Shown here: one piece after another, positions 2,508-21,000 of the stretch
Position numbering within the stretch: position 1 is the stretch's first letter
Layout: each line of letters starts with the position of its first letter
DNA from: an archaeon
Lineage (GTDB): Archaea; B1Sed10-29; JAJSAI01
Assembly (NCBI GenBank): GCA_024274695.1
Contig: JAJSAI010000015.1
Coordinates: 1-21,558, forward strand
DNA: 21,558 bases
Direction of reading: 5' to 3'
Translations under genes and position numbers: made by a program
Notes under the pieces: generated by a model
Seen by the model: the letters and a program-made list of their open reading frames with translations, nothing else
Database searches by the model: none
Told to the model about the DNA's origin: nothing

Positions 2508-2553
2508 ACCTCCGAACAAAGCCAAGGAAAAGAGTGGAAAAGAGTTTTTTAAA
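2508..2553 (-). promoter_or_regulatory. TATA box and strong Shine-Dalgarno of the radical SAM gene
   Basis: On the minus strand TTTAAAAA (2546-2553) is centred 50 bases before the ATG at 2499, and GGAGGT (2508-2513) sits 8 bases before it. The TATA-like box overlaps the stop codon of the upstream surface-protein gene (2549-2551), so the two same-strand genes probably have separate promoters despite a gap of only 49 bases. Confidence 0.5.
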
Positions 2554-5500
2554 GGGTTTTGTTGCTCCTGCCGCAACAGACCGCGAACAGGGCGAGGGCG
2601 AACAGGAACGCGGTCAGGAGCGCGTCGTACCCTGGAGCGCTGACGACGGTCGTTGCCCCGGTGGTGCCCGTTGTTATGGAGCTTCCTCCCAGGAGTATTG
2701 GAGACAGGCTTGAAACGTTAGCCTGTATGCTGTTAGCGTTGGTGTCCAGGCTTCCTGCGACGGTCACCTCCTCCCAGGTCGCTCCGTTCCAGTGGTACAC
2801 CTTGAGGCTGTTCTCGCTAACTCCCGCCGCGCTGAGCTCCGCGTCAGTATAGTATATTGTTATCAGCGCCCCTCCACCGCCGTCGTTGATGACGTCAAAG
2901 TACTTTACGGCGGTGACAGGAGGCGTGACTCCTGTTGGGTTATAAGACCCGAGGACTGCTATGCTGGCATTACCCGCGGCGGTAAAGTTGGCTTCTATGA
3001 CTCCCGTTATGTTCAGCGTGCCTCCTGCTGAAACCGTCGCGTTAACATACTGGCTGGCAGTGTAGAATGTGTCCGATGCTGAAGCGCACGAACCGCAGTC
3101 GTTGCACATCGTGACATTGTACGAGTACTGTGTTCCAGGGGACAGCCCAGAGCACGAGACAGTGGCAGTGCCCGCTGCAGGGGACGTGTCCTGAGTGCAC
3201 AGGTTTCCGTTCACGTACACGGTGTAGTTTGCGGTTATACTGGACACTCCTATGTCAAGCCAGAGGGTGTCGTTCGAGACTGTGTTCACTGAAACAGCTG
3301 TTGAAACGCTTGGCGTTGGACAGAGCACGGTTATGCTCGTGTTTGTTGAGTTTGTGTTCCCTCCTGAGTCAGTACAGAGCGCCCAAGCGTAAGCGCTGTC
3401 AGGTGTTAACACTGTGTAGTTGTACTCCCATGTCCCGTTGGTACTGTTACCAGAGACCAGGGACATGTTGCCCACGGGCGTCCCGTTCCAGTAGAATTCA
3501 CATGAGAGCACACCGTAGTCGTCGGTCACGTTAACCCGGAAGGCGGTTGTTGAACCGTACGTTGCTGTGGTCGGCAGAAGTCCTGGCACCTGCGGTGGGT
3601 TAACGTCGGACGGGGCGGTGAGAGAGTAGACTTCTTTCATGCCGTAGTCTCTTGAAACCTTTATGTTGGAGATATTGAATTTTGCCTCCAGCTGCACGTA
3701 GGCGTCTACAAGGGCGGACACGCCCACGGTTATGTTCACGTTCTTGCAGTAGAACGGGTAGTTGGAAGCTGACGTCCACCCGCCTTTTGACGTGTTCCAG
3801 CAGTATACCGCGGCCCCGTTGTGCAGGTCCATTCCTAGCAGCGCGTCAGGCACGTAGTCTCCGTCAAAGTCAAGGAACCTGACGTCCCCGTTGTTGCTGC
3901 CCGTCTCCGCAGATGTGGCGTTACCGTAGGCGATGACCATCTCGCCGGATCCTACCGACGGGGTCACAGCGTAGTCGTAGTAGTTGCTCCAGAAGTTGTT
4001 CGTGTCGTAGTCGTCTGAGGAGGAGTACTCTCCGGCTTGTATTCCTCCTCCGACCGTGACAGTTCTTGCTTCAAGGGTCTTGCCGGTCTCGTTCCTGGTC
4101 ATGCTCGCCGAGATGTTGTACCCTATCCTCATGCTGGACATGTTTGAGATTACTATGTTCTCTACTGGGAACAGGAACTCTCTTCCTGACGCGCTCACCC
4201 ACACGGGTTGCATGTTGTTTCCGTTGGCCAGCGAGTACCTGAGGCTGTACGGCTGCCAGTTGTTGTTAGAATCCCTGTAGAATGTTTCCAGCTGCGCGGT
4301 GGACACCCTGATCATGAAGTCAGGATAGTAGTCCCCGTTGAAGTCAAAGTACCTCTCCTGCTGGTCAGCAGAGTTTATGTAGAATATCAGCATGCCGTGG
4401 TTTGATTTCGCGTACTCTGTCGCTGTCCAGTACCCGTTAGTGTCGTAGTCGTCTGCAGACGTGTACTCAGAGTAGTTTCCGTCAAAGACATAGTCTGAGA
4501 TTGTGAGTGACTCTGATGAGACGTTTGAGATCCAGGTAAAGTTCGCGAAAGACGAGCTAATCCCAGAGGTTGACCAGCCAGGGATAATGTTTCCTGTGAT
4601 GTTGTATGTTCCTGAGTCAACCTCGTAGGTGCTCCCTGTAACGCTCGTGTCATCATAGGTGTAATTGAACCACGCGTTCTTTGTTATCACGTGCCCGCCG
4701 TAGTCAGTAAAGTACCCTTCAATGAAGTAGTCCTCAAACTGCGGGTAGCACGACGCGAACACAAAGTACGGGGCTATCCCTGTTTCCTGCGGGCATGATC
4801 CGTACTTTGTTGAGGTGCTTTCGTTCCACGTCTGGTACCACTGGAAGTCAAGGGTCTCCGCGCCGAAGTTGTACCCTGACGCGAGGGTGTTCCCAGCATC
4901 ATCCACAACGTCTGAGATCATGGTCACCTGGAGTCCAGGCAGGGGCTTGTAACCGTCAGTTGTTTTGACAACGTGGTCAACAAGCCAACTCTGCTCGAAC
5001 ATGTGCGGCTGGGTTGACCCGTTCTGCAGGAAGAAGTCGTTGTTGTTGACGAGGTCAGTGTAGTTAGTGCCCCCTTCTGCGCCGAGCTCGTACCCTATGG
5101 CCTGCACCGCTGTAGAGTCGGTTATGAAAACGTTGCCGTCTACCACTACACCTGTTATGTTCCTGTGGTTCATTGCAGGATACCCGTTAACCTCCAGCAC
5201 GAGGGCGTTGTCCCCTGTGGAGTTTATCTCGTTGTTGGAGATCAGGATGTTCCCTGAAGAGGCTCCCTGGGAGACAAGGAGCACGTGAACGGTGACTCCA
5301 GGGCTCCCGAGAGTGTTTGACTCAAGGTATACGTTGGACGAGTCGTATATGCTGAGAAGGTCTCCTGTGGCGGTTGATGTCGCCACAGCGCGTGTGTTGT
5401 TGAGCACGAAGTACTGGGAGCCTTTCACGTTAAGAGCATCAATGTTGAGTACTGAGTCCTTGATCTCCGCCAGACCGAAGACGGTCATTACCTTCGTGTA

Positions 5501-6367
5501 CGTGGCTGAGGAGGATATAGTACTCCCATCATACATCTTCAGGCTCCCGCCGCTCCTGACCGTGAGGTACGCTCCTCCGAGCGAGATGTCAGTGTTTATC
5601 AGCGTGAGCGTGCCTGCTGAAACCACCATGTTCTGGGCAGGGTTTACAGCAGTGTTCTGGCATACGGTGTCCGCGTCTATAATCCAGTCTCCCACCCCGG
5701 AGTATGTTGATCCAGTACACCCGCTGGGTATTGTAAGGGTTTCAACAGCGGATATTGAGGAGTTGGGCCACATGTAAAACGGGGCTGGGGGGAGAAGGTC
5801 AACGGTTGTGTTGTACGCGGTGATGTTAGCTTTCCAGCTTCCGACAGCAAGCCCGGAAACGTCTATGGCCACTTCTGCACGCGCAGTCGTGTCAGCGGAG
5901 GTCACGGTCATGGCCCGCACTGGATAACCGTTGCAGGTCGTGGAAACCGATCCGAGAGAGTCCCCTGAGATTACGGTGTCCCACGCGTTTGAGGAGTAGT
6001 TGTAACAGTATACCCAGACACCGTGATTTCCTGAGGAGTTCTTCTGTATCCTCAGGGCAAGGTCAGCGGTACCGTTTGAGTTCAGGTCAATAAGCCTCAT
6101 CACGTTATACACTGTGGGCGGTGTTGAGTTCTCGCCCAGGAACACCCTTATTTTGAGGGTCTTGTACGCGGCATAGTCCTGGCCCCCGTCACTAGCGTAG
6201 ACAGGGGATCCGGACGCGTCAGTGTAGACCACCTGGTCCGCGGAGAGGTACTCTGACGGGCTTGCGTCAACAGCAGCAGAGTCCCTGTAGTTCAAGGTCA
6301 TCGCACCCGCCAGGGGAACAAACACCATTGCGGCAAAAAGGATGAACAGGGCTTTTGTCAGCTTCAT
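2549..6367 (-). CDS. Large exported multidomain surface protein with VVSAPGYD C-terminal anchor
   Basis: A 1272-residue protein. Residues 1-22 form a signal peptide (MKLTKALFILFAAMVFVPLAGA). A calcium-loop-bearing module occurs at about 38-185, 630-760 and 778-905; each carries a Dx[DN]x[DN]xxxD loop (94-102, 675-683, 833-841). Between copies one and two are a right-handed beta-helix (about 210-460) and a segment starting 'GYKPLPGLQVT' that resembles a carboxypeptidase-regulatory-like fold. After copy three come Ig/fibronectin-like domains, then a module with 'ITIYYTDAELSAAGV' and 'SLKVYHWNGATWEEV' of the kind that precedes archaeal CTERM anchors. The end (1241-1272) is VVSAPGYD, a hydrophobic stretch and CCGRSNK. 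Many N-x-S/T sequons suggest glycosylation. The start has GGAGGT 8 bases upstream. It is probably an S-layer-associated or adhesive protein; its ligand is unknown. Confidence 0.85.
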   Translation of the reverse strand: MKLTKALFILFAAMVFVPLAGAMTLNYRDSAAVDASPSEYLSADQVVYTDASGSPVYASDGGQDYAAYKTLKIRVFLGENSTPPTVYNVMRLIDLNSNGTADLALRIQKNSSGNHGVWVYCYNYSSNAWDTVISGDSLGSVSTTCNGYPVRAMTVTSADTTARAEVAIDVSGLAVGSWKANITAYNTTVDLLPPAPFYMWPNSSISAVETLTIPSGCTGSTYSGVGDWIIDADTVCQNTAVNPAQNMVVSAGTLTLINTDISLGGAYLTVRSGGSLKMYDGSTISSSATYTKVMTVFGLAEIKDSVLNIDALNVKGSQYFVLNNTRAVATSTATGDLLSIYDSSNVYLESNTLGSPGVTVHVLLVSQGASSGNILISNNEINSTGDNALVLEVNGYPAMNHRNITGVVVDGNVFITDSTAVQAIGYELGAEGGTNYTDLVNNNDFFLQNGSTQPHMFEQSWLVDHVVKTTDGYKPLPGLQVTMISDVVDDAGNTLASGYNFGAETLDFQWYQTWNESTSTKYGSCPQETGIAPYFVFASCYPQFEDYFIEGYFTDYGGHVITKNAWFNYTYDDTSVTGSTYEVDSGTYNITGNIIPGWSTSGISSSFANFTWISNVSSESLTISDYVFDGNYSEYTSADDYDTNGYWTATEYAKSNHGMLIFYINSADQQERYFDFNGDYYPDFMIRVSTAQLETFYRDSNNNWQPYSLRYSLANGNNMQPVWVSASGREFLFPVENIVISNMSSMRIGYNISASMTRNETGKTLEARTVTVGGGIQAGEYSSSDDYDTNNFWSNYYDYAVTPSVGSGEMVIAYGNATSAETGSNNGDVRFLDFDGDYVPDALLGMDLHNGAAVYCWNTSKGGWTSASNYPFYCKNVNITVGVSALVDAYVQLEAKFNISNIKVSRDYGMKEVYSLTAPSDVNPPQVPGLLPTTATYGSTTAFRVNVTDDYGVLSCEFYWNGTPVGNMSLVSGNSTNGTWEYNYTVLTPDSAYAWALCTDSGGNTNSTNTSITVLCPTPSVSTAVSVNTVSNDTLWLDIGVSSITANYTVYVNGNLCTQDTSPAAGTATVSCSGLSPGTQYSYNVTMCNDCGSCASASDTFYTASQYVNATVSAGGTLNITGVIEANFTAAGNASIAVLGSYNPTGVTPPVTAVKYFDVINDGGGGALITIYYTDAELSAAGVSENSLKVYHWNGATWEEVTVAGSLDTNANSIQANVSSLSPILLGGSSITTGTTGATTVVSAPGYDALLTAFLFALALFAVCCGRSNKTL
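3653..4480 (-). repeat. Tandem pair of a protein module with Dx(N/D)GDYxPD loop
   Basis: Inside the 1272-residue surface protein, residues about 630-760 and 778-905 align. Both begin 'EY(T/S)S(A/S)DDYDTN' followed by a W, both have a strand 'G(M/E)(L/M)(I/V)' and both carry a D-F-(N/D)-G-D-Y-x-P-D loop about 45 residues in. At DNA level the stretch encoding DDYDTN is nearly the same in the two copies, which points to duplication. The loop spacing D-x-[DN]-x-D suits calcium binding. Confidence 0.7.
5813..6256 (-). repeat. Diverged N-terminal copy of the same surface-protein module
   Basis: Residues about 38-185 carry 'SEYLSADQVVYTD', a loop D94-L-N-S-N-G-T-A-D102 and 'VWVYCYNYSSNAW'. These parallel 'SEYTSADDYDTN', the DFNGDYYPD loop, and 'AVYCWNTSKGGW' of the two downstream copies. 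The similarity is weak but runs in the same order. Confidence 0.5.
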
Positions 6368-6375
6368 GACTCACA

Positions 6376-6418
6376 ACCTCCGATCTGGGTCTTTACAAAA
6401 CAAGACAGGATTTATAAA
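6376..6418 (-). promoter_or_regulatory. TATA box and Shine-Dalgarno of the 1272-residue surface protein
   Basis: TTTATAAA (6411-6418) is centred 47 bases before the ATG at 6367, predicting transcription from about 6388. GGAGGT (6376-6381) lies 8 bases before the ATG. Confidence 0.6.
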
Positions 6419-6440
6419 CATAGCGGTCTAACACAACCCT

Positions 6441-6467
6441 TATATATTTTTGTTGCTAAAACAACAA
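6441..6467 (+). promoter_or_regulatory. TATA box and TTGTTG/CAACAA inverted repeat before the 150-residue protein gene
   Basis: TATATATT (6441-6448) is centred about 25 bases before the ATG at 6470, so the mRNA should be leaderless. Between the box and the start lies an inverted repeat, TTGTTG (6450-6455) and CAACAA (6462-6467). AACAA (6466-6470) can also pair with TTGTT (6476-6480) across the start codon. An operator in this place would block transcription initiation. The natural candidate binder is the TrmB-like regulator encoded in the same unit; that is inference. Confidence 0.5.
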
Positions 6468-6469
6468 CA

Positions 6470-6922
6470 ATGGGGTTGTTAAGAGCGCCTCCCAGGGAAA
6501 AGATCCTGGAAGCACTTTCATGCATTGCTGACGGCAGGATACTCGTGTCAGGTAACAGGGCAAAAGTGCTGTCCAGCACTGGAGAAAGGGAATACGAGGT
6601 GGAAATAATTGAGGAAGATAACAGGGTTAAGAGCACTGATCCAGCCACCAGGTGGCAGCACTACTACGGTTATCCTGTGATCGCGCTGCTCATGGAAAAG
6701 GGGATCATAAGCTTTGATCCTGAAGTAGCAGAGTACCTTAAGGGAATCCCCTGGAGAAGGTGGAATGAGGAGAACAAGAAAAAGCATGGCAGAGAATACC
6801 ACGAGGCCTCGTTCCAGCAGGCCCTAAGGCTTGCCAAGGAAAGGGGAGCAGACCCTGGGAGGATAAAGAAGTTTGTTGAAAAAGTCCTGGCAGAACTTGA
6901 CCAACTGGGGATGAGAGCATGA
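6470..6922 (+). CDS. Conserved-looking protein of unknown function, co-translated with a TrmB-like regulator
   Basis: A 150-residue protein that I do not recognise. The first 50 residues look like a small beta-rich unit (ADGRILVSGNRAKVLSST, then YEVEIIEEDNRV). A distinctive core 'RWQHYYGYPVIALLMEKG' (about 62-79) is followed by 'YLKGIPWRRWNEENKKKHG' and two amphipathic helices to the end. There are no cysteines and no signal peptide. The aromatic core suggests a structured cytoplasmic protein, possibly ligand- or nucleic-acid-binding, but I assign no function. Its stop overlaps the next start as ATGA (6919-6922), so it is probably translated together with the regulator. The start is fixed by the TATA box at leaderless distance. 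Confidence 0.8.
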   Translation: MGLLRAPPREKILEALSCIADGRILVSGNRAKVLSSTGEREYEVEIIEEDNRVKSTDPATRWQHYYGYPVIALLMEKGIISFDPEVAEYLKGIPWRRWNEENKKKHGREYHEASFQQALRLAKERGADPGRIKKFVEKVLAELDQLGMRA

Positions 6923-7638
6923 GCGTTGTTGAGGATCTAAAAGAGCTTGGGTTTTCGGAGTACGAGGCCAAAGCGTATGTTGCGCTGGTGAAAGCAGGGA
7001 GCGCGAACGTGACAGAACTCAGCCAGTTGTGCGACGTGCCAAGATCCAACCTTTACGCTGTCATGGAAAAACTCTGCCAGAAGGGTTATGCGGAGATAGA
7101 AAAAAAGAGGCCCCTCGTGTTCAGAGCAGTTGACCCTAAGAGAGCATTAAACGAGGAGGCGGGCAGGAGGATAAAAGCGCTAAAGGAAGCGAGGGACCGG
7201 GCCGTGAGAGAACTTGAGAGTATAAAAGGGGAAAAGGGACCTATGATTCCCGCGATCGTCTGGGGCGTCAAGGGATTTGACGCGGTCCAGGACAAGGCCG
7301 TGGAGATGATAAAACGGGCGAAGAACGAGATAATGATAAACGTTCCCGACCCAGAAATCCTTTCTGACCCTGTCCTGGAAGAACTGAAAAAAGCGGTCAA
7401 GAGAAAGGTCAAGGTGAGGATAGCCACAGAGAACAAGAACCTTGACAGGATAAAGGGGATCGGGATCGTGAGGATCAGGGACAGGATACACGGGTTTGAC
7501 ATGGTCGTTGATGAGAGGGAGGTGATGGTCGCTCCAGCGATTCCTTTTGCTGCAGCGTGGCTTGACAATCCTGAAATGGCGGTGCACGTTAAGGACTTCC
7601 TGAACCTGGTGTGGAAGGATTCAAGAGTATTAAAATAA
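6919..7638 (+). CDS. TrmB-family transcriptional regulator
   Basis: A 239-residue protein. Residues about 1-75 are a winged helix-turn-helix of the TrmB type: 'LGFSEYEAKAYVALVKAGSA', then 'ELSQLCDVPRSNLYAVMEKL' as the recognition helix region, then the wing 'KGYAEIEKKRPLVFRAVDP'. A charged, probably coiled linker follows at about 85-107. The C-terminal half (about 115-239), with 'KAVEMIKRAKNEIMINVPDPE' and 'VKVRIATENKN', matches the phospholipase-D-like regulatory domain of this family, which binds small molecules (sugars in the best-known members) and alters DNA binding. The effector cannot be told from sequence. It shares the unit with the 150-residue protein and faces the 1272-residue surface-protein gene across 102 bases, so control of either or both promoters is plausible. 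Confidence 0.9.
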   Translation: MSVVEDLKELGFSEYEAKAYVALVKAGSANVTELSQLCDVPRSNLYAVMEKLCQKGYAEIEKKRPLVFRAVDPKRALNEEAGRRIKALKEARDRAVRELESIKGEKGPMIPAIVWGVKGFDAVQDKAVEMIKRAKNEIMINVPDPEILSDPVLEELKKAVKRKVKVRIATENKNLDRIKGIGIVRIRDRIHGFDMVVDEREVMVAPAIPFAAAWLDNPEMAVHVKDFLNLVWKDSRVLK

Positions 7639-7655
7639 CGGCTGGGAGAAAAAAC

Positions 7656-7696
7656 AAATATATACTTGTTCTCCGGAATCTTGTCACGCGAGGTGG
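7656..7696 (+). promoter_or_regulatory. Promoter and Shine-Dalgarno of the ACT - ThiS-like - TtuA operon
   Basis: AAATATATA (7655-7663), preceded by a purine-rich stretch suitable as a BRE, is centred about 41 bases before the ATG at 7701. GAGGTGG (7690-7696) is the ribosome binding site. Transcription would start near 7686, just upstream of the Shine-Dalgarno sequence. Confidence 0.6.
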
Positions 7697-7700
7697 TCAG

Positions 7701-8081
7701 ATGAAGGAATTCATCATAAACCTTAAAAACAAACCAGGAGAACTCGCGAGAGTGTGCGATGTTCTCGGAAAACAGGGAGTCAACATAATATCCTTGTACG
7801 GAGAAGGAGAGCAGGAGTCAGGACGAGTTATCGTGATAACAGCGGACGAGAAGACTACAGAAAAAGCACTGGCCCAGAACGGTTTTGAGTTCACCGCGAA
7901 CGAGATAATGCCCCTCAGGATAGCAGACAGGCCAGGAGAGCTTGCAAAACACATCTACAAGCTCGCGTACCACCAGGTGAACATTAACAGGATCTACCTT
8001 GTGGACAAGAAGAACGGGTGGGCAGAGCTCGGTATGATCGTGGAAGACCCGAAAAAAGCGGAAGAAGCTCTCAAGGGTTGA
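7701..8081 (+). CDS. Tandem ACT-domain protein
   Basis: A 126-residue protein made of two ACT domains: residues about 1-65, opening 'MKEFIINLKNKPGELARVCDVLGKQGVNI', and about 68-126, opening 'MPLRIADRPGELAKHIYKLA'. Both carry the classic ACT turn (N/D)(K/R)PGELA, where amino acids bind at dimer interfaces. No catalytic domain is attached. Such free-standing double-ACT proteins are usually taken as amino-acid sensors or regulators. A longer in-frame reading starts at 7611, but I chose 7701 because GAGGTGG stands 4 bases before it, the ACT fold begins there, and the longer version would overlap the upstream gene and run through the TATA box. It leads the operon, with 4 bases to the ThiS-like gene. 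A link between amino-acid level and tRNA thiolation is inference. Confidence 0.85.
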   Translation: MKEFIINLKNKPGELARVCDVLGKQGVNIISLYGEGEQESGRVIVITADEKTTEKALAQNGFEFTANEIMPLRIADRPGELAKHIYKLAYHQVNINRIYLVDKKNGWAELGMIVEDPKKAEEALKG

Positions 8082-8085
8082 TCCC

Positions 8086-8283
8086 ATGAGAGTAACCCTT
8101 TCCCTGAGAGGAGAAAAAAAGGAAGTGGAATTCTCTGGCAGGACCCTTGGGGACCTGCTCTCCTCCCAGGGAATAAACCCTGAAGAGTACGTTTTCTCCA
8201 GGAACGGAGAACTCATTCTTGCTGACGAGCCCCTGCACGACGGGGACGAGATAAAGCTTGTCCCGGTCGTGAGCGGAGGATGA
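8086..8283 (+). CDS. ThiS/MoaD/SAMP-family ubiquitin-like sulfur carrier
   Basis: A 65-residue beta-grasp protein, 'MRVTLSLRGEKKEVEFSGRT' to '...DGDEIKLVPVVSGG', ending in the free Gly-Gly at which ThiS, MoaD, TtuB and SAMP proteins are adenylated and then thiocarboxylated by an E1-like enzyme. The 'L.DGDEIKLVPVVSGG' ending is the hallmark of the family. Its last bases overlap the start of the TtuA-like gene as ATGA (8280-8283), so this carrier very probably donates sulfur to that enzyme, as TtuB does for TtuA and SAMP2 for NcsA. An extra role in protein conjugation, as for archaeal SAMPs, is possible. No E1-like (UbaA/TtuC) gene is in the window. The ATG at 8086 follows the preceding stop by 4 bases. 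Confidence 0.9.
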   Translation: MRVTLSLRGEKKEVEFSGRTLGDLLSSQGINPEEYVFSRNGELILADEPLHDGDEIKLVPVVSGG

Positions 8284-9176
8284 AGTGCAGCAAGTGCGGG
8301 GCAAAGGCTGTCGCCTGGCTTCCCGCAAGCAACGCCGCGTACTGCAAGAAGCATTTTAACTACTACTACGAGAGGAAGGTCAAGAGACTCCTCCCGAAAA
8401 TGCTTGACCAGAAAAAGGATGTTGTAGGTGTCGGAGTGTCAGGAGGAAAGGACTCCCTCGTCATGCTCTGGCTCCTGCACAAAAACCGTTTCAACGTCGT
8501 CCCAATACTCGTTGACGAGGGGATAAAAGGGTACAGGGACAAGACAATCCCGTACGCTGAAAAACTCTGCCGTGAACTGGGACTGGAACTGCACAAGGTC
8601 TCCTTCAGGGAAGAGTATGGGAAAACGCTTGACGAGATGGTAAAAGAAGGGGGGAGGAACGCGTGCTCTTACTGCGGGGTGTTCAGGAGGGACCTGCTGA
8701 ACAAGACCGCCAGAAGGCTGGGCTGCACGAAGCTCGCGATAGGCCACAACCTGGATGACGAGGTGCAGTCCGTGCTCATGAACTTTTTCAGAGGAGAACT
8801 GGAAAGAATCGCTAGAGGCGGGCCGGTGACAGGGATAATAGAAGACCCGAAGTTCGTCCCGAGGGTGAAGCCGCTGAGAATGTGTTCTGAGAAGGAGAAC
8901 GTGATATACGCCCTCATTAACGGGATAGAGTATTCTGACATTGAATGCCCTTACGCTACAACAGCGTACAGGGGAGTCGTCAGGGACGCGGTGAACATGA
9001 TAGAGTCAAGGTATCCTGGCACGAAAATAAGCATACTCCGGACCAGCGACAGGCTTGTTGAAATACTCAGGAGGGAGCTGAAACCGGAGGGCGGGCTCAG
9101 GTACTGCAGTGAGTGCGGGGAGCCCAGCGCTGAAAAAGTCTGCAAGGCCTGCCAGTTCAGGAACGAGATATTCTGA
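8280..9176 (+). CDS. TtuA/Ncs6-family tRNA 2-thiouridine synthase
   Basis: A 298-residue protein with the full TtuA/Ncs6 layout. An N-terminal zinc ribbon has ligands C3, C6, C22 and H25. The PP-loop SGGKDS (54-59) activates the target uridine with ATP. The iron-sulfur cluster cysteines are C129 and C132 (in CSYCGVFRR) and C223 (in ECPYA), matching positions known to be essential in TtuA. 'GHNLDDEVQSVLMNFFRG' (155-172) is typical, and a second zinc ribbon is C276-C279-C288-C291. The family puts sulfur on U54 (TtuA, heat-stable tRNA) or wobble U34 (Ncs6/NcsA); sequence alone does not say which, so no symbol is given. It is translationally coupled to its likely sulfur carrier. All key residues are present. 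Confidence 0.93.
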   Translation: MKCSKCGAKAVAWLPASNAAYCKKHFNYYYERKVKRLLPKMLDQKKDVVGVGVSGGKDSLVMLWLLHKNRFNVVPILVDEGIKGYRDKTIPYAEKLCRELGLELHKVSFREEYGKTLDEMVKEGGRNACSYCGVFRRDLLNKTARRLGCTKLAIGHNLDDEVQSVLMNFFRGELERIARGGPVTGIIEDPKFVPRVKPLRMCSEKENVIYALINGIEYSDIECPYATTAYRGVVRDAVNMIESRYPGTKISILRTSDRLVEILRRELKPEGGLRYCSECGEPSAEKVCKACQFRNEIF

Positions 9177-9190
9177 CCGTTTAGAAGAGA

Positions 9191-9496
9191 TTACCCGTGC
9201 ACTTTTTTGTACTTGTCCACAAACTCTTTTCCCCTGAAACTTAGGAAGTAGATCCATCTTGGGCCTGCCTGCATTTTTTCCAGTATCCCGTGCTTGAGCA
9301 GGTCCTCCATCTTTTTCTTTACCCTGTCGTACGGGAGGCTCATCTCTTCAGATATCTGGTGAGCGCTCTTACCTCCTTCCGAGCCCAGTTTCAGGAGAAT
9401 GTCCACGACCACCGCGTCCTTGGACATGTGAAACAGGTACGGGTCCTGCTGCAGGTACGCCATCCACTCTTCAAAAACGTCTGTCATGGGGGTCAC
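9191..9496 (-). CDS. Winged-helix DNA-binding protein at the end of the gatDE operon
   Basis: A 101-residue protein. From about residue 27 it shows a winged helix-turn-helix: 'DAVVVDILLKLGSEGGKSAHQI' (helices 1 and 2), 'SEEMSLPYDRVKKKMEDLLKHG' (recognition helix) and 'ILEKMQAGPRWIYFLSFRGKEF' (wing), then a short charged tail. It is probably a small transcription regulator acting as a dimer; its targets are unknown. The GTG start at 9496 overlaps the gatE stop as GTGA, which favours it, although an in-frame ATG three codons later (9487) is also possible. Being last in the gatD-kinase-gatE operon suggests autoregulation of that operon, but this is inference. It converges with the TtuA-like gene, 14 bases apart. 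Confidence 0.78.
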   Translation of the reverse strand: MTPMTDVFEEWMAYLQQDPYLFHMSKDAVVVDILLKLGSEGGKSAHQISEEMSLPYDRVKKKMEDLLKHGILEKMQAGPRWIYFLSFRGKEFVDKYKKVHG

Positions 9497-11358
9497 TCGC
9501 CTATCTCTTTTCTTAGTATCATGCTGAGCCTGCTCCCGTCAATCCTTCCGCGGTACTCTTTCATGAGTTCGCCCATGAGCACCCTGAATGCGCGTCTCTT
9601 GTCCTGGAGCAGGTCAGGGTACTTCCCGAGGAGGAGTGCGATGCTCTTCTTAACTTCTTCCTCCGAAACTCTCATGAGCCCTGTCTCTTCAAGGATCTTT
9701 TCAAGGCTTTTCCCCGGGGCCTCAGACCATGCTTTTATCAGGTCCGGGATCGCTTCTTTCGAGAAGAGCCCCGCGTTGAATTCTTTGAACAGTTGGGATA
9801 GGTGATCTTCTGAGAGTCTGTCTGTTGGAACCCCCTGTCTCTTCAGGGACTTGAGGGTCTGTTCAAGGGTCACCGCGATTACTGTTGGGCTGGCACCTGT
9901 CTCAACGAGCTTGTAGAACAGGGGCCTGTTCTTTGATATGACCATCTTGTCCGCGAGCTCCTCGGACAGCCCGTACTTTATCATCAGGTCGTCCTTTATC
10001 TTCTGGGGGTCCGCGGGCAGTCTTTTCCTGAGCGAATCAACCCAGGATGATCTTATCATGACTGGTGGAACGTCTGTTTCAGGGTACATCCTGTGCTCTC
10101 CTGCCATGGGCCGCATGTACTCTGTTGCTCCGCTCGGGAGAGGTCTTCTGGTTTCCGCGGGAACGCCGTCAAACGCCATGTTAATCCGGTTGACCGCTTC
10201 TTTCAAGGCGTTTTCTGCCTTTTCTTTTTCTCCGAGGACGAGCACGAACGCGTCGTCCGGCTTCATTTCAAGCGCCTTGCGGACGGCTTCCGCTTCTTTT
10301 GTTATCGGGTACTTGCTCAGGTCTTCGTCAGAATGGATTATTCCTCCTACGCCTGCTTTCTTGGCGTAGTCTGAGACTTCTGACCCGAACCTCCTTCCCG
10401 GGCCGAGTTCTGTACCGAGAACCCCTTTCCATCCAGGGAGGACTATTGCGAGGATTCTCTGTCCTTTCTGTAGTCCCCTTTTTATGAACTTGCATTCCGT
10501 GTCCCTGAAGTACGCGGTCACGTCAACAGGCCTTGGGCTCACCTTCTGCAGCCGGCCTGTTATCTCCTGTTTTAGTTTTATTAGCCTGGCCTGCCGCTCG
10601 GCCTCAAGTTCCACGACTCTCGCGAGCATTCTTATGTCCTGCAGGCCCTTGACCTCTACTCTCGCGCCCCCCGATATTGAGATGTTAACGTCCTGCCTTA
10701 TGGTGCCAAGGCCTCTTTGAACTCTTCCTGTCACCCTCAGCAGTTTCCCGATTTCCAGCGCGACTTCCTGCACGCTCTTGGGGTCCATTTCCATGATGCC
10801 CGTGGCTATTTCTATCAGGGGGATTCCGAGCCTGTCAAGCTTGTAAACGGCGCCGGACGCTGTCCTTTCCACTATCCCTGAGGCTTCTTCCTCAAGGAAG
10901 GTTCCCTTTATTTCAACATCTTCTCCGTTCACTCTTATCTTCCCTGAGTGGCCTATCATGGCAGTCCTCTGGAATCCGCTGGTGTTGGAGCCGTCTATTA
11001 CAGTTTTCCGCATGAAGTGGACTTCGTCTACTATGCTGCACCCTAGCATTAGCGAGAGGATCACCGCGGTCTCGAGCGCTTCTTGGTTGACCTGGTGGGG
11101 CGGTTCCTCGTCAAGTTCCACCAGGCAGGACGCCCTGTCATAATGGTAGTACTTGTACTCTTTTCCTGCCAGGGCTTCTTTGGCCGCGGCGGGGTCCATG
11201 TACCCCAGTTCTCCTGACACTGGCCTTAGACTGCGTTGGACCACGAGGTCAGGGTCTCCTTCCTGGAGTTCGGACGGGCAGCTGCAGAAGAGCTTGTGAG
11301 TGTCCAGCCTCTGGTGGAACTCAAGCCCCACTTTTAGCCCTAAGCGCTTGTAGTCCAT
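9493..11358 (-). CDS. gatE: Glu-tRNA(Gln) amidotransferase subunit E
   Basis: A 621-residue protein, the normal length for archaeal GatE. The N-terminus 'LKVGLEFHQRLDTHKLFC.CPS' is the GatB/GatE signature. The cradle domain continues with 'VDEVHFMRKTVIDGSNTSGFQRT' and 'GTIRQDVNISI', where the kinase/transamidase active site binds Glu-tRNA(Gln). An AspRS-like GAD insertion is seen around residues 290-400 ('SEVSDYAKKAGVGGIIHSDE'). The C-terminal helical and YqeY-like tail (about 480-621) binds tRNA. GatE phosphorylates tRNA-bound glutamate and adds ammonia delivered from GatD, giving Gln-tRNA(Gln). The ATG at 11358 lies 19 bases inside the kinase gene, with GGGGAGG just before it. It forms an operon with gatD, the kinase and the winged-helix gene. 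Confidence 0.96.
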   Translation of the reverse strand: MDYKRLGLKVGLEFHQRLDTHKLFCSCPSELQEGDPDLVVQRSLRPVSGELGYMDPAAAKEALAGKEYKYYHYDRASCLVELDEEPPHQVNQEALETAVILSLMLGCSIVDEVHFMRKTVIDGSNTSGFQRTAMIGHSGKIRVNGEDVEIKGTFLEEEASGIVERTASGAVYKLDRLGIPLIEIATGIMEMDPKSVQEVALEIGKLLRVTGRVQRGLGTIRQDVNISISGGARVEVKGLQDIRMLARVVELEAERQARLIKLKQEITGRLQKVSPRPVDVTAYFRDTECKFIKRGLQKGQRILAIVLPGWKGVLGTELGPGRRFGSEVSDYAKKAGVGGIIHSDEDLSKYPITKEAEAVRKALEMKPDDAFVLVLGEKEKAENALKEAVNRINMAFDGVPAETRRPLPSGATEYMRPMAGEHRMYPETDVPPVMIRSSWVDSLRKRLPADPQKIKDDLMIKYGLSEELADKMVISKNRPLFYKLVETGASPTVIAVTLEQTLKSLKRQGVPTDRLSEDHLSQLFKEFNAGLFSKEAIPDLIKAWSEAPGKSLEKILEETGLMRVSEEEVKKSIALLLGKYPDLLQDKRRAFRVLMGELMKEYRGRIDGSRLSMILRKEIGE

Positions 11359-13198: not shown

Positions 13199-13215
13199 GG
13201 CACTCGCCTAACAGT

Positions 13216-13731: not shown

Positions 13732-13754
13732 CCGATTTCCTTAAGGGCCCAGTG

Positions 13755-13762
13755 TTATAAAA
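13755..13762 (-). promoter_or_regulatory. TATA box of GNAT paralogue 1, overlapping the elp3 stop
   Basis: TTTTATAA on the minus strand is centred 27 bases before the ATG at 13731, predicting a leaderless mRNA. The box covers the elp3 stop codon (13755-13757), a compact arrangement seen elsewhere in this window. Confidence 0.5.
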
Positions 13763-14504
13763 CTTTAACGAGGTAGTCTCCTTTGTCCCGATAGCCGAGT
13801 TTTCTGTAGTACGGTTTCACACCAACTCCGGAGATGACCGCGATGCGCGAGTACCCTTTTTCTCTCGCGATTTCCTCCGCCCTTTCAAGAAGGGCCTGGC
13901 CGTAGCCCTTGTGCTGTCCAGTGCCATGTTTTCTTTCACCCAGTCTTGCCTGCTGTCCGTAAACGTGCAGTTCTCTTACTCCAGCACAGCCTTCAAGTTC
14001 CTCTGGCCAAAGTTCGGCGAGCCTGAGCCTCACGAAACCCACGAGCGCGTCATGCGTTTTTTCTTCGGCGGAAATGAAGTATTCTGTTCCTCCTGACGCG
14101 GTGTAACTTGTTTCTTCTATTTCCACACTATTCCAGTCTGGCTCGAAGCCCTCGTCCCTTGACTTTAGGCCTACTTCCCTGCAACGGATGCACTGGCATT
14201 TTACGCCCATTTCCCTCCTTTTCTTGTCCACGAGCTGCCTGAGGTTTGAGTGCCTGGGACCCTCCAGGATCAGCGGGCTCGGGATGTCCCTCTGGACCCG
14301 CATGACCCTAACCCATTTAGGGAAGAACCGGGTGGCCTTCGCGATTATTTCAGCAGTCTCTTCTTCCGAGTATGGAATCCACTCCCCGCAGGAATACTCC
14401 TCGTAAAGTGTTGTCTTTCCGTACTCTGGTTTTATCAGCAGGGTCGGGTATATTTTTATCATGTCAGGCTTGAACCTGTCGTCCGAGAAAATTTTCTTGA
14501 ACAT
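13755..14504 (-). CDS. elp3: Elp3, C-terminal part (acetyltransferase domain), separated by a frameshift
   Basis: A 249-residue reading frame that supplies the second half of Elp3. It begins in 'MFKKIFSDDRFKPDMIKIYP', the conserved 'F.(d)D.RFKPDMLKIYPTL' stretch of the family, continues through 'CQCIRCREVG' and 'FISAEEKTHDALVGFVRLRL', and ends with the GNAT domain, whose acetyl-CoA turn is QHKGYG. It is one base out of phase with the upstream frame (14459-15328). Restoring the base gives a single protein of about 524 residues, which is normal. If the gap is real in the cell, this part could be made only by re-initiation at the ATG at 14504 or by frameshifting, and the enzyme would be split between radical SAM and acetyltransferase halves. 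Confidence 0.85.
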   Translation of the reverse strand: MFKKIFSDDRFKPDMIKIYPTLLIKPEYGKTTLYEEYSCGEWIPYSEEETAEIIAKATRFFPKWVRVMRVQRDIPSPLILEGPRHSNLRQLVDKKRREMGVKCQCIRCREVGLKSRDEGFEPDWNSVEIEETSYTASGGTEYFISAEEKTHDALVGFVRLRLAELWPEELEGCAGVRELHVYGQQARLGERKHGTGQHKGYGQALLERAEEIAREKGYSRIAVISGVGVKPYYRKLGYRDKGDYLVKVL

Positions 14505-15328
14505 CTGCAGGTCCTTTCAGGGCTTGATCCGGGAAGGTTCGTCATCAGGTGATAGTTGATCTTGAACAGCGCGTTCTTCAGGTCCTCGGTTGCCCGGACG
14601 ACGTCTGCGACGGTGTGGCCTCTCCGCACTCTCCCGTAAACCGCGTCGTCAGGGTTCTGCACGCCTAGTTCCACTCTTGTCCCGCCAAGGCGCCTCATGA
14701 GCCTTATCTGCTCGCGCGAGCACTGGTCCGGCCGGGTCTCGAAAGTGAGCCCAACACACCTGTGCCCTGCTCTCTCGTTAAGCTCGTGCGCTTCCCGGAT
14801 AGACCTGGAGCGCGCGCCGTTCAGGCCGTTGAAGCACCCGAGCACGAACTCTTCAACCTCGCGCGCTGGGCGCGCGGGAAAGGTCCCGCCCATGATAATA
14901 AGTTCTACCTTGTCCGTGGGATGGCCTGCTGACTCAAGCGCGTGGAGCCTTTCCCTGACCTGTTTTTCAGGATCGTAGCCGAACTGCCTTCCTCTCATGG
15001 CAGCAGGCTCTCTGCCAGTGTAGGACTGGGGAGTGTCAATCTCGGTGCCGCCGGGACAGTACGTGCACTTTCCGTGAGGGCAGGGGTGGGGAGGAGTCAT
15101 CACCGCGACCACTGCAACGCCTGAGAGGCTTCTCGTGTGCTTTATCCTGAGCCACTCGTACTCTGAGCGCTTTTCTTCAGGGATGAGCATGAGAACGTCG
15201 GCGTCAGAGGGCATTTTGCTCGCGCGCAGTTTCCGGGCTAGCCTTGCCTTTTCCCTGGCCATCTGCTTCTTGTCACTGATTTCTCCTGACAAGACTTTTT
15301 CCGCGAGAACGTGCGCGAGATCGTGCAT
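14459..15328 (-). CDS. elp3: Elp3, N-terminal part (radical SAM domain), frameshifted at its end
   Basis: A 289-residue frame; the true Elp3 sequence ends at codon 272, after 'LMTNLPGSSPER', and the last 17 residues are out-of-frame read-through. The helical N-terminal tRNA-binding region (about 1-80) has 'KKQMAREKARLARKLRASKM' and ends near 'HTRSLSGVAVVAVMTPP'. The cluster motif is CPHGKCTYC (Cx4Cx2C) in 'HPCPHGKCTYCPGGTEIDTP', followed by 'ELIIMGGTFPARP' and 'GLTFETRPDQCSREQI'. Elp3 makes the acetyl/carboxymethyl radical chemistry on tRNA wobble uridine (cm5U34 pathway); archaea use Elp3 alone, without the other Elongator subunits. The ATG at 15328 has a TATA box at leaderless distance. GNAT paralogues lie on both sides. 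Confidence 0.9.
   Translation of the reverse strand: MHDLAHVLAEKVLSGEISDKKQMAREKARLARKLRASKMPSDADVLMLIPEEKRSEYEWLRIKHTRSLSGVAVVAVMTPPHPCPHGKCTYCPGGTEIDTPQSYTGREPAAMRGRQFGYDPEKQVRERLHALESAGHPTDKVELIIMGGTFPARPAREVEEFVLGCFNGLNGARSRSIREAHELNERAGHRCVGLTFETRPDQCSREQIRLMRRLGGTRVELGVQNPDDAVYGRVRRGHTVADVVRATEDLKNALFKINYHLMTNLPGSSPERTCRCSRKFSRTTGSSLT
14510..14521 (-). other. elp3: Single-base frameshift in elp3 (missing G in a GGG run)
   Basis: The minus strand reads CCT GAA AGG ACC TGC. Adding one G (AAAGGGACC) restores P-E-R-D-L-Q-M-F-K-K, the expected Elp3 continuation. The lost base is in a short G run, typical of a sequencing or assembly error or a recent mutation. No X-XXY-YYZ slippery heptamer is present in the zero frame. 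Confidence 0.85.
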
Positions 15329-15350
15329 CCTGGAATGGTTCTGAAAAAAG

Positions 15351-15360
15351 CGTATAAAAG
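15351..15360 (-). promoter_or_regulatory. TATA box of elp3; leaderless spacing
   Basis: CTTTTATACG on the minus strand is centred about 28 bases before the ATG at 15328. No Shine-Dalgarno sequence is needed or seen. It lies between the stop of GNAT paralogue 2 (15362) and elp3, so elp3 has its own promoter. Confidence 0.55.
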
Positions 15361-15361
15361 C

Positions 15362-15898
15362 CTATTTCCCGCGCTTTCTCCCACGGGCCTTTTTGAGGAT
15401 ATCAAGCCCTTCTTTTGAGAGGAATCCGTGCGCGGGCACCCTGGGCTTTTTTTCCACCCTCGCTTCCCATGACTTCACGTAGCCCTCGGCGTGCGTTTTC
15501 CCGTAAGACGCTTCAAAGGCCTTCAGGCCTTCTTTGGAGACCACTACCGCGTTAAGTTTTTTAACTCCCTTCTCGGCCGCCCGGTTGTAAGCCCTGTTTA
15601 GCAGGAGTCTCGCGATTCCCTTGCCCCTCTGGCCTTTTTCCACGTACACTTCTTCAACCTCTGCCTCCTTTCTTCCCGGAGAGTATGATAGGGTGAGGAG
15701 CCCTGAGAGCCTTCCTTTCTCATCGTACCATAACACATATTCCTTGTGTCCTCCGGAAAGCTCTCTTTCGGAGGCGTACTCGCGCGCCAGTGAAGGATCT
15801 CTCCCGAGCTCAAGGTACATTTTCTCCAGAAGCAGCCTCAGCCTTTTTCGATCCTCTGACGAGAGCTCCGCGTACTTTTTTACTTCCACCACACCCAA
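15362..15898 (-). CDS. GNAT-family acetyltransferase, paralogue 2 (TTG start)
   Basis: A 178-residue paralogue of the protein at 13216-13731, aligning from the first residues ([13 protein letters not shown] against MGALIEKKYSDLS) through '[18 protein letters not shown]', the acetyl-CoA motif '[20 protein letters not shown]' and the tail '[20 protein letters not shown]'. The start codon is TTG at 15898. I accept it because GGAGG stands about 8 bases upstream, the N-terminus then matches the paralogue residue for residue, and no ATG is near. GTG codons at 15892 and 15889 are alternatives. Its first 19 bases overlap the end of the surface-protein gene at 15880-18045, so its translation is probably coupled to that gene. 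The substrate is unknown. Confidence 0.83.
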
Positions 15899-18045
15899 CC
15901 TGCTCTCCTCCTATGCAGCATGGTCAGCAGCGCCAGTGCGAGGAGGGCTGACGCGAGAGAAGGGTCAAAGCCCGGGGCGCTGACCACGCTCGTGCTGGAA
16001 ACGTACCCGTTCAGGACGACGGACGAGAAATGAGGGATGCCTGAACAGGATATGTCCGGCCCAGACTGAGCGCAGGAGACGCCTATGTTGCTAGCGCGCG
16101 TGCAGTTGGTCGTGTTGCACCAGTAGACTCCCTCGTAGTCGGACAGGGACCTGTTCTTGAACACGACCTCGGCGGTGTAGTTGCTCGGAGGAAGGAAAGT
16201 TGAAACGTACAATCCGTACTCAGGGTTTGAAAGATTGTACGCTTTCAGGGCGTATAACTCGCTGGAGGAGAGCTCGCGCACGTAGGTTCCTGTCAACGCG
16301 TCCAGTCTTCCCGTGACATTAAAGACTACCCTAAACCCCCTTCCTTCAAATGTGGCGGGACCGTTAAGCATTTTCGGTATCGTGACCGTCACGGCGGCCG
16401 TGCCCGGAGAACTTTTCACTATCCTGTTCACCAGGACAGTTGGTGTTGTCGGGGGATTGTAGAAGAAGGTGATCCTGTGCGGGGGGTTGTTACCGCACTT
16501 CACGTAGTACGTGTTCAGTCCGCTTGAAGCGATAACGTCAAAGACCTTGCTCCCGTTCTCCGTTGTTTGCATGGGAGTCATCTGGTCAAACGTTGCGTTA
16601 GGATCGCTGGAGTACCTGCACTCCAGGCCCTCCTGAGTCTGTATTATTATCCTCTTGGCCCCGTCTTCTATCACGCTCCCTGGAGGAAGATTTTCCCACA
16701 ATAGCCAGGGGTTGCTGCAAGAGTCTCCTCCTGAGCAGTCGTTATCTATCCCGTCGCACTCTATTTCAGTGGCCCCGGGATGCACGCTCGCGTCCAGATC
16801 GTTACAGTCATCACCTCCCACGGCCTGGGAAGCGGACTGGTAACCGTCCCCGTCAAAATCGTACGTGTCCTGACCGTCGCAGTTCTGGTCAACCCCGTCA
16901 AAGGGAACCTCCAGTGCCCCAGGGTTTATGGTGGGATCGTTATCGTTGCAGTCCGCGCCAGAGGGAGTGAGGTTGTACGGAGCAGGAGGGTAGCAGTCCC
17001 CATCCCCATCCTTCCAGATCCACGGCCTGACCAGAGGGCGCGTGTCGTAAGAGAAGGAGGAGTCCGATGCGCAGTCCTTGTCCGCATCAACATGAGACGC
17101 CTGAGCGGCCCAGTAGTTACCGAGCCCGTCCGGGCCCGAGAAGGTGTTCCCAGAGGCGGGAGTGGCTCCTGAAGAGGAAAGGAAATTGTTTGAGTAGACA
17201 GTGTTGCCAGAACCGTACCAGGAGACAGCCCCGTAGACGGTATTATTATAGAAGATTCCCCCGTCCCCTATTCCAAGCGACTGGCTTATGTTGTTCTCCG
17301 CGGCCAGGGACCCGCTGGACCTGAGCATGAGATCCCATCCTGACGTGCTGATATTGTTGCCTGTTACACGGTCCCCTGAACCTCCGTATACCAGCACACC
17401 GTTCCTCAAGTCTCTGACCCGGTTACCTGAAATGGTGTTATTGCCATCGGATGAGGAGAAGTACACGAACGTCTCCTTGTGGTAACCGGGATCAGCATAG
17501 CCAACCACAGTATTACCTGAAATGTTCATGGAACCCGCGTAGTCCATCTTCACCCCGTAAACGTTGTAGTTGTTTTCCCTCGTGTGCAGGAGGAAAGTAT
17601 TGTTCACTATCCTAATATCGTACAAGTACGCGCCCTGGATCGCGTACGTGTATTGATTGTTCGGTTTTCCTCTGAGCAGGAAGGTGTTGTTCTCAAACAT
17701 GATGTTACCTATTTTGCTGGAACTCTGACCGTAAACCTGGACCACAGTGGTGTTAGAAACCAGGACACAGTTTTTCACGACAATATTACTACGGTAGTTA
17801 AGGTTCAAGGCCAAACCTGCCGTGTCAGGGGAAGCGCTTATCTCATGGCCAGCACAGTCTAGGACAACGTTGTTCCACAGTGTTAGGGCCGCTGACGTCG
17901 TGCAGTTCGCGAGACTGTCCGAACTATTCAGCACGCGGGAGGAGGTCATGGTATCACCGCAAGCGCATGGGACGCTTCCACCGCATACTGCGGAAAAAAC
18001 TGTGGACATTAGAACTATCAGGAACAGGATAGGATAAACCCTCAT
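15880..18045 (-). CDS. Exported NosD-like beta-helix protein with MopE-type metal-binding repeats and VVSAPGFD anchor
   Basis: A 721-residue protein. The signal peptide is about residues 1-20 ([20 protein letters not shown]). Residues about 30-340 are a right-handed parallel beta-helix of the NosD/pectate-lyase type, with many 'N.I.NN.F/V' rungs and the NosD-like ending 'GLGNYWAA...D.D.DC...S.SYDTRPL'. Residues 346-443 hold Asp- and Cys-rich MopE-type motifs: 'DGDGDC', '[13 protein letters not shown]', 'DGVDQNCDG', 'DFDGDGY', '[13 protein letters not shown]' and 'CDGIDNDC'. A beta-rich region follows (about 540-680). The end (687-721) is VVSAPGFD, a hydrophobic stretch and [11 protein letters not shown]. 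NosD-like folds often bind carbohydrate; the repeats probably bind calcium or copper. It sits in the surface envelope; the ligand is unknown. Confidence 0.87.
16717..17010 (-). repeat. MopE-type metal-binding repeats
   Basis: Two and a half copies of the MopE-like unit (D-x-D-G-D-G-[CY] ... DCNDxD...[IV][NH]PGA ... DG[VI]D[QN][ND]C[DS]G) within residues 346-443 of the NosD-like surface protein. Cysteine pairs and DxDxDG loops recur about every 50 residues. Confidence 0.8.
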
Positions 18046-18069
18046 GACCTTAAGAAAGAGGGTAAGGAG

Positions 18070-18076
18070 TTTAAAA
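18070..18076 (-). promoter_or_regulatory. TATA-like box of the NosD/MopE surface protein gene
   Basis: TTTTAAA on the minus strand is centred about 28 bases before the ATG at 18045, consistent with a leaderless mRNA. The gap to the upstream surface-protein gene is only 34 bases. The box is weaker than the others in the window, so read-through from upstream remains possible. Confidence 0.35.
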
Positions 18077-18079
18077 GAG

Positions 18080-21000
18080 TTACATTACCCGGGCCCTGGT
18101 AAGGAACGCTGCGGCGGCAGCGAACAATACCGCTACCAGCAGCCGGTCGAATCCGGGCGCGCTGACGACCGCCACGGTCCCGGCCACTTGTCCTGCTGAA
18201 ACCGATCCGACCGTGAACGTTCTGTTCGCCGCGGCGAAGGCGCTGTTCCCGGCCTGGTCGTAGCACTGCACGTTCCACACGTAGAACCCGTTGGTCCAGC
18301 CAGTGGTCTGGAACGTGTTCAGGGTTCCGTTGTCAGGGCTCGTGTCAGTGGCGAGCACCTGCCAGCTTCCCGTCCGGTTCGTCCACAGGCTGCAGTTCGC
18401 CAGGCTCCTGTCGTCCGACGGGGTGTACGTGAAGTTAATGTCCGATGACGTGATGCTGGCCCCGTCCGCGTGAGCGTCAAGCGTCACGGTCGGGGGAGTG
18501 GTGTCCGAGTATCCGAAGATTCCGAAAGCGCTGAAGTTATCAGTGTACAGCTGGATCGTGTTCGCGCCCGTGTCCAGCACGGTGTCGTTCCGCTGGTTCC
18601 ACGCGCTGCCGTTCCACTCGAACACGGTGAGGGTGCTCTCGTTCACTCCCGCGTTCTGCCACGCTGTGTCAGAGTACTGGACGGTCAGGTTGGCTAATGC
18701 TGTTGCTGAAACGTTTTCCACGATCCAGTACGTGCTGATGTTCCTCCACCCGCTCGGGTCAGCAGGAGGGTCTACGGCGGGCCGCGTGCGCACGTTCTTA
18801 AGGGTGCTCTGGGCCACGAGCACGTCGTACAGCGTGCCCTGCCCCTTGAACGTCGCTTGGGACAAGCTTACAGGGACTCCTCCTTCAATATTATTGTCGT
18901 ACTCGTTGTCCTGGTACACCACCTGGGATAGGGTAGAGGACTGTCCTGAACTCCCGTCAAAGTAGTACGCGTAGGCGTCGGCGCCCACCCCCCCATTCCA
19001 TCCTGAGAGTGTGACGTTTTGCAGGGTGTTCCCTCCTGGATCGTACACTCCGGCAGTGAGTCCGGAGGGCGTTGCTCCAAGGTACTGCACGCTCACGTTC
19101 TGGAGGGAGTTTCCTGAGTCCCCGAACAGTACTGCCGCGCCACCCTGGTCATTGTAGTAGTAGATTTTCCCGTTCTTTACGGTAACCCCTCCTGACAAAT
19201 CAAACATAACATCATCGGTGGCGTTGGCAACAAATTTGTCAAGGACAATGCTGGAACTGTCGTACGCGGACAGTCCCACAGTCCCAATATTAACGCTTGA
19301 AAGGGATACTGTGGAAGAATTGTATGCGCTAACAAATAGGTCTGACGTGTTTATTCCCGTGGCCTGCATGGAGTTGTTGAGGGAAAGAGTAATACTCGCG
19401 TTAGAAGATATCTCAGTCATAGCGTTCAGGGTTCCCATGAATGATATCACGTCCAACCCGCTGGAATTGGCCTGCAGGACGAGGTTGTGGAACACCGCGC
19501 CCCAGCAGGTTGAACTTACTCCGCTGCTGCATATGATCCCGTACGACGTGAAGTTTTGCATTGTGGTGTCAGTAATGTTCAGTCCCGTGTACGTGCCGTT
19601 CTGCATGTAGACTCCTGACGACACGTTTTGTATTGTCACGTTCAGGATTTTCAGGTCCTGGACGTCATTGTCGGTGGAATAGACTCCAGTACCCCATCCT
19701 CTGATGACACAGTCTCTTACCGTGATACCCTTGAAGGAGTTCCCCAGGCCTGTTCCTATGACCACTGCCTTCCCCGCGTTGGTTGAATAGTTGCCTTCCA
19801 GCACGACTCCCGGCTCGCACCTGAGGATGGTGCTGTTCGCGGTAAAGTTCATGCACCGTGACGCGTTGGAGTTCAGCACGCTCTCGTTCAGCACGTACAC
19901 GACCGCAGGAGTGTTCAGGTTAGAGCAGGCTTGTATGTACGTTTCGTTCATCCAGAGGACTATTGTCCGGTATTCTGTGGCAAGGCTTGAGTTCACGTTG
20001 AACTGGGTGGTGTTATAGTAGCCGTTCCATGAAGCGCCTGCGGTGTGCGGGTTGTAGTCGCTGACCAGCGAGCCCAGCCCGTTCACGACCTGCTCGATCG
20101 GGATGAGAGTGTTGGAGTCAATCCAGTCGGATGGCGTGAACCCTCCGACTCCTGTCGTGCTGGTGAGGCCATAGGCTCCGTTGGTGGCGTTCAGTTCAAC
20201 GCTCGCCCCGGAGAGGGGGTCCCCGAACTGGTTTTCTACTTTTATTCTCGCGATCCACCGTTGTTCTACTCTGTTCCTGTTGACGTCCACGAAGTTGTTG
20301 GAAGAGTTCAGGCCGAGGATGTCATAGTTGGAAGCGTTTATCAGGACTATCCCGCTGTTTGAGGTTAAGTTTATTATGTTCCCGGTAATGCTGACATCGC
20401 CGTCGTCGTGCACTATTACTATCGCGTCATCGTACAATACTGCCCCGGAAGACCCGCACTCTTGCAGAGTGTTGTTCTGCACGAGCCCTGGTCCGGGCAG
20501 GTAGTACAGGACGCAGGCCGTGCCGAACGATGTTGCCTCGGTCACGTTCCTGACCGTGTTATTGTAGAAGGAGAGGTTCCCCTGGGACACGAATGCAGCG
20601 AGGACCGCCCTGTTCGTGGTCCCAGGCTTCCCGAGATCGTGGAAGGTGTTGTTCCACACCTCCGCAGAGGCGTTTTCCTTAACGTATACTCCAAGCGCCA
20701 TCGGCAGCCCAGTTTCAGGATCGTACCGGTAACCCGTGACAGTGTTGTTCCATGCTCTCACGTTGTACGCGGGTTGTGGAGCATCGCCCTTTCTTGAGGT
20801 AAGGAGACCGCCGTTGTACACCAGGTTGCCCGTGACGTTCACGTCGTGCCCTCCTTCAACGCTGACCGCGCTCCCGTTTATTCCTGAATAAAAGTAGTTG
20901 TGCTCTACCAGCACGTTGTAGCCCTGTCCGTCAGAGCCGTCCACGTGTATTCCTGACCCGCTCTGCGTGTTGTTGAAAAAGTTGTTTCTTATGGTGACGT

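Follow-up and report, generated by a model that had tools for sequence, protein, structure and literature searches.

SAPG tails as candidate archaeosortase sorting signals on surface proteins of an uncultured archaeon

The window analysed here is a stretch of 21,558 nucleotides that forms a whole contig (C10) of the genome of an archaeon (G000; 825 kb in 32 contigs, 91% complete), one of a set of 19 genomes of its class. Matches to family models reveal archaeal gene content in the window, with GatE (750 bits), the tetraether lipid synthase Tes and Elp3. Its minus strand carries three genes for surface proteins, w1, w2 and w3, each ending in a C-terminal tail that contains the residues S-A-P-G (the SAPG tail). 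The exported protein w1 (2549 to 6367) has 1272 residues, with weak matches to FG-GAP, Ig and fn3-like domains and 42 N-x-S/T sites. The exported protein w2 (15880 to 18045) has 721 residues, with NosD/beta-helix repeats and a MopE-type metal-binding motif. On the same strand 34 bp upstream of w2 lies w3 (18080 to 21556), a protein of at least 1158 residues with a right-handed beta-helix (Pfam PF13229) and 58 N-x-S/T sites; its 5′ end runs off the contig, so that the N-terminus is missing. Two of the three open reading frames (w1 and w2) begin with a Sec-type signal peptide, as judged by eye.

The three tails share the octapeptide VVSAPG[FY]D, located at 2624 to 2647, 15964 to 15987 and 18146 to 18169 in a preliminary description of this DNA. 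All three copies are present at these positions, in frame on the minus strand and 21 to 27 residues ahead of the stop codons. Each is followed by a hydrophobic span of 15 to 17 residues and then by a short end with basic residues. In w1 (tail 2549 to 2647, minus strand) VVSAPGYD is followed by ALLTAFLFALALFAVCC and by GRSNKTL before the stop codon. In w2 (15880 to 15987, minus strand) VVSAPGFD precedes a 16-residue span and an 11-residue end, and in w3 (18080 to 18169, minus strand) the same octapeptide precedes a 15-residue span and TRARVM. The three-part arrangement of motif, span and basic end that had been described for these proteins of unlike architecture is thus found in all of them.

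Recurrence of the octapeptide by chance can be rejected. The pattern GTNNTNWSNGCNCCNGGNTWYGAY matches three times in the 825-kb genome, always within the window, and its reversed control gives no match. A stricter pattern, run against 257 Gb of sequence from other genomes, gave 22 matches, a rate at which 0.00007 matches would be expected in 825 kb, and reading these 22 in frame revealed no C-terminal motif with a membrane span after it. In GTDB contigs the exact motif occurs at chance level only. Comparing the three pairs of window tails, we find 12 synonymous and two non-synonymous differences in the codons of the motif, whereas the next 18 codons have 12 synonymous and 37 non-synonymous differences (Fisher p = 6e-5 against the motif). 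The octapeptide has therefore been kept by selection as a peptide, while the span diverged.

Searching the genome for further tail proteins, as had been suggested, revealed a small family of six carriers, the three of the window and three on other contigs. The latter end in VVSAPGTD (C14:12043), FVSAPEVD (C20:3056) and VTSAPGYS (C18:18524), and these proteins have other folds, of the PQQ-type propeller and beta-helix kinds. Because of these three further tails the core is SAP(G) rather than the full octapeptide; all six share just S-A-P and hydrophobic positions, and the invariant VVSAPG.D core proposed from the window alone does not survive. The family has the tripartite form of CTERM proteins, with a motif, one span, a basic end, export and several carriers per genome.

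We compared the carriers with their tails removed, and the results were mixed. w2 matches neither w1 nor w3, and for w2 an explanation by plain paralogy can be rejected. Ahead of the tail, w1 and w3 have a domain of about 49 residues in common (43% identity, E = 2e-6); about 220 residues of w3 have a counterpart in the C14 protein, which in turn has a PQQ-type propeller in common with the C18 protein. Paralogy is partly true for w1 with w3 and for w3 with the C14 protein. The statement that the proteins differ outside their tails is consequently correct for w2 and not for the w1/w3 pair. Since the comparisons are mixed in this way, one tail is carried in this genome by six proteins whose bodies are in part related and in part not, and from sequence comparison the tail would appear to be for the most part a module.

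Alternatively, domain shuffling might have spread a C-terminal membrane anchor of the ordinary kind, which is not cleaved, among surface proteins. Some tails may indeed have travelled with neighbouring modules, given the upstream domains common to w1 and w3 and to w3 and the C14 protein, and at least five other exported proteins encoded in the 394 kb of the genome that were sampled (overlaps included) have a plain C-terminal membrane span and no motif. A plain anchor requires hydrophobicity and not a fixed peptide, however, and here it is the eight residues ahead of the span that are under selection, the span itself having diverged; moreover the upstream part of w2 has nothing detectable in common with w1 or w3. 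We regard a simple anchor as improbable. Since the sample also contains exported proteins whose C-terminal spans lack the motif, the motif marks a subset, and the SAPG tail is very probably a signal of the sortase type.

Clear tails are found in three of the 19 class genomes, all of one order: the six of G000, together with tails in G003 and G002. In G003 a protein of 751 residues ends in VSAPGMD, and the G002 tails are TTAPGLE, TPASGIT and TAASGLT. The VSAPG tail of G003 and the TAPG tail of G002 were first found with a model of the tails of the window's own genome, with weak E-values of 0.003 and 0.17, and were accepted on account of their position at the C-terminus of long exported proteins. 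The two ASG tails of G002 were picked partly by eye, and later scores, obtained with both in the model, are not independent. When ten tails are compared A alone is invariant, with G kept in nine. The best matches in 82 other archaeal genomes (E 0.01 to 0.05) proved on inspection not to be C-terminal SAPG tails. Small contigs of G003 (C26 and C35; loci L165 and L166) carry bacterial-looking proteins, and are possibly contamination of that genome.

The genome of the window encodes three homologues of exosortases and archaeosortases, termed type I (contig C12), type II (C9) and type III (C14). A tree of 33 enzymes from the class resolves into the same three types, with type I present in nine genomes, type II in 15 and type III in nine, and each type has conserved gene surroundings of its own. 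All pass the TIGR04178 superfamily cut-off of 23 bits (type I 57.5, type III 39.9 and type II 34.9), and none of the three reaches the cut-off of any named subfamily. Cys, Arg and His are present in all three enzymes of this genome. In alignments of the class enzymes C78, R120 and H140 of type II and C71, R113 and H127 of type III are invariant, as are C144 and R186 of type I, in which the His is found in eight of nine. It had been suggested that the tail is read by an archaeosortase of its own in this genome; homologues are present as expected, with three candidates instead of one.

The type I enzyme is a protein of 234 residues (L008:1661-2365, on C12). Enzymes of this type often have an inserted outer domain, confidently modelled by AlphaFold (pLDDT 88 for the type I enzyme of G000). 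In G000 the insert is of alpha/beta structure and spans about residues 58 to 132; it is absent in G003 and G004. A Foldseek search with the type I model returned no solved exosortase, and the insert alone weakly resembles PII and ferredoxin-like folds. In three genomes of one family (G008, G014 and G016; L088, L098 and L102) the type I gene directly follows a gene resembling HMG-CoA reductase, a likeness judged from the C-terminus. HMG-CoA reductase is an entry enzyme of isoprenoid lipid synthesis.

Type I is the probable reader of the SAPG tail. Each of the three tail-bearing genomes has it, and the ten genomes without a detected type I enzyme have no clear tail. In G002 a tail-bearing beta-helix protein of 1022 residues is encoded 30 bp upstream of a 145-residue open reading frame that is followed by the type I gene, all on one strand; we estimate the chance of such a neighbour at roughly 1%, given some 800 genes of which about three carry a tail. 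Taken as a whole, we consider it likely that these are archaeosortase-type C-terminal sorting signals with type I as the likeliest reader. A number of observations weigh against this. A tail is detectable in only three of the nine type I genomes (Fisher p = 0.09 among related genomes, uncorrected for kinship), one of those lacking a clear tail being G004. Most genomes of the class are incomplete metagenome-assembled genomes. The C14 tail has a single basic residue at its end, so that the basic end is weak. Type II is likewise found in all three tail-bearing genomes, and PssD (PF02666) in none of the 19 class genomes, with matches in seven control genomes including that of Haloferax volcanii.

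Co-occurrence would also be compatible with a type II reader of the same kind of signal, this enzyme being present in 15 of the 19 genomes. G001 and G005, however, have type II alone and no detectable tail, and the conserved neighbours of type II suggest that it has another client. At the type II locus (L076:767-13414 on C9, and 14 relatives) all 15 genomes encode a FlaI/TadA-like ATPase within about 3 kb; a TadC-like protein frequently accompanies it, and several genomes add a very long protein (2566 residues in G000). The C-terminus of this giant protein is not a span. The locus may possibly be a sortase-linked pilus or secretion system, as judged from its gene content, and we think type II unlikely to read the SAPG tail.

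The type III gene (L007:7224-8289, on C14) overlaps or abuts that of CDP-archaeol synthase (CarS) in all nine genomes that have type III, the other loci being L089, L090, L094, L099, L101, L104, L105 and L107. This provides a gene-level link between an archaeosortase and lipid synthesis, of which we found no description in the literature searched. A type III reader might draw directly on the CDP-archaeol pathway, and the genome richest in tails has the enzyme, encoded on a contig that also bears one of the tail genes. In G003 the VSAPGMD tail nevertheless occurs with type III missing at its usual place beside CarS, type III was not found in the tail-bearing G002, and eight other type III genomes have no SAPG tail. 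Type III thus looks dispensable for the tail, and is very unlikely to be its reader. The CarS locus lacks type III in G006, G007, G012 and G013 as well as in G003. Searching the 394-kb sample for tail classes assignable to type II or type III gave nothing clear.

Finally, the tail could be read by a sortase without homology to the archaeosortases, for instance a rhombosortase or a protease resembling myxosortase. Two papers describe GlyGly-CTERM and MYXO-CTERM tails as having the same three-part form and unrelated proteases as readers (PMC3237569, PMC11980579). The SAPG tails have neither a Gly-Gly nor an invariant Cys signature, however, and three archaeosortase homologues are at hand in the genome, making a reader of this kind extremely unlikely, although no search aimed at rhomboid proteases was made.

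With an archaeosortase as reader, a mechanism can be proposed by analogy with ArtA (PMC7157517). With export directed by an N-terminal signal peptide, the protein would be held through its C-terminal span. The membrane-embedded archaeosortase would recognise the S-A-P-G core at the span's outer edge, whereupon the catalytic Cys, aided by the Arg and His, would attack the chain near the motif to form a thioester with the enzyme. The hydrophobic and basic tail would be released, and the new C-terminus passed to a nucleophile of the membrane lipid or another component of the envelope. Recognition, the site of cleavage, the assignment of the enzyme and lipid attachment are all what we infer for the SAPG proteins, and for lipid anchoring we put the chances as even.

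To our knowledge, haloarchaeal ArtA, which needs PssA and PssD, is the only archaeosortase for which lipid anchoring has been elucidated. In H. volcanii ArtA processing requires both proteins, and archaetidylethanolamine is the proposed nucleophile (PMC7157517). The two are not both found in the 91% complete genome of the window. Its sole detected CDP-alcohol transferase of family PF01066 is nearest to archaetidylinositol-phosphate synthase (104.9 bits against a cut-off of 180), and scores 23 bits for archaetidylserine synthase. Because PssD was not found and the only transferase detected resembles archaetidylinositol-phosphate synthase, another lipid might be used, or the product might be released or otherwise linked. 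CarS, Tes and the archaetidylinositol-phosphate synthase-like enzyme suggest that the organism makes its own ether lipids. The gene for Tes lies in the window (913 to 2499, minus strand; 726 bits against a cut-off of 450), 49 bp downstream of w1 on the same strand. Elsewhere in the window Elp3 (13755 to 15328, minus strand) occupies two overlapping frames of 289 and 249 residues that cover profile positions 3 to 279 and 277 to 522; it is split by a frameshift near 14500, either a sequencing error or real.

More tentatively, and with considerable doubt, the class might run three archaeosortases with separate jobs and neighbourhoods, type I with SAPG-tail proteins, type II with Tad- or pilus-like genes and type III with CarS. 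At least one of these would anchor its substrates via a lipid other than archaetidylethanolamine, since the class lacks PssD. That a small archaeon combines three archaeosortases and a different signal with no detectable PssD suggests that the lipid route known so far is not general. The SAPG system gives defined pairs of enzyme and tail, and it would also allow anchored surface proteins to be predicted from sequence in an uncultured lineage.

The closest comparison is with PGF-CTERM and archaeosortase A (TIGR04126 and TIGR04125) of haloarchaea and methanogens, to which the window tails had been likened. Membership can be rejected. No TIGR04126 match is found in the genome at E ≤ 10 (the cut-off is exceeded in two of 14 control genomes, and H. 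volcanii and M. acetivorans are among the matching controls), and with TIGR04125 type III scores 31.4 bits and type I 25.0, with type II not listed, against a cut-off of 75. Archaeosortase A is therefore discounted. No Pfam model exists for the tail, the tails score below the cut-offs of all Pfam and NCBIfam models, and no paper on a SAPG signal was found in the literature searched. For Loki-CTERM (NF033507) the C18 tail VTSAPGYS comes to 19.5 bits against a cut-off of 19.9, over the PGY-plus-span part, and the other nine of the ten tails are not listed at E ≤ 10, so that the tails fall outside this family. The enzymes of G000 lie far below the heimdallarchaeosortase cut-off of the Heimdall-CTERM system (NF045529). 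Pacearchaeosortase (NF033505) matches seven of the nine type I enzymes at E ≤ 1e-5, that of G000 with 24.9 bits against a cut-off of 80. The best named-subfamily scores of the latter enzyme are with Exosortase H (TIGR04177; 50.6 bits) and XrtX (NF046081; 48.7 bits), under cut-offs of 86 and 170 bits respectively. The SAPG system is unlike that of PGF-CTERM in its SAPG core, whose copies in the window have the aromatic residue followed by Asp, and unlike that of ArtA in that no PssD is found in the class and the enzymes score far under the ArtA cut-off. Yet it has the P-G core, the single span and the basic end of PGF-CTERM, its carriers are likewise exported with many N-x-S/T sites, and its enzymes belong to the exosortase/archaeosortase superfamily. 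CTERM signals and archaeosortases are known as a kind, and the SAPG tail is a new variant.

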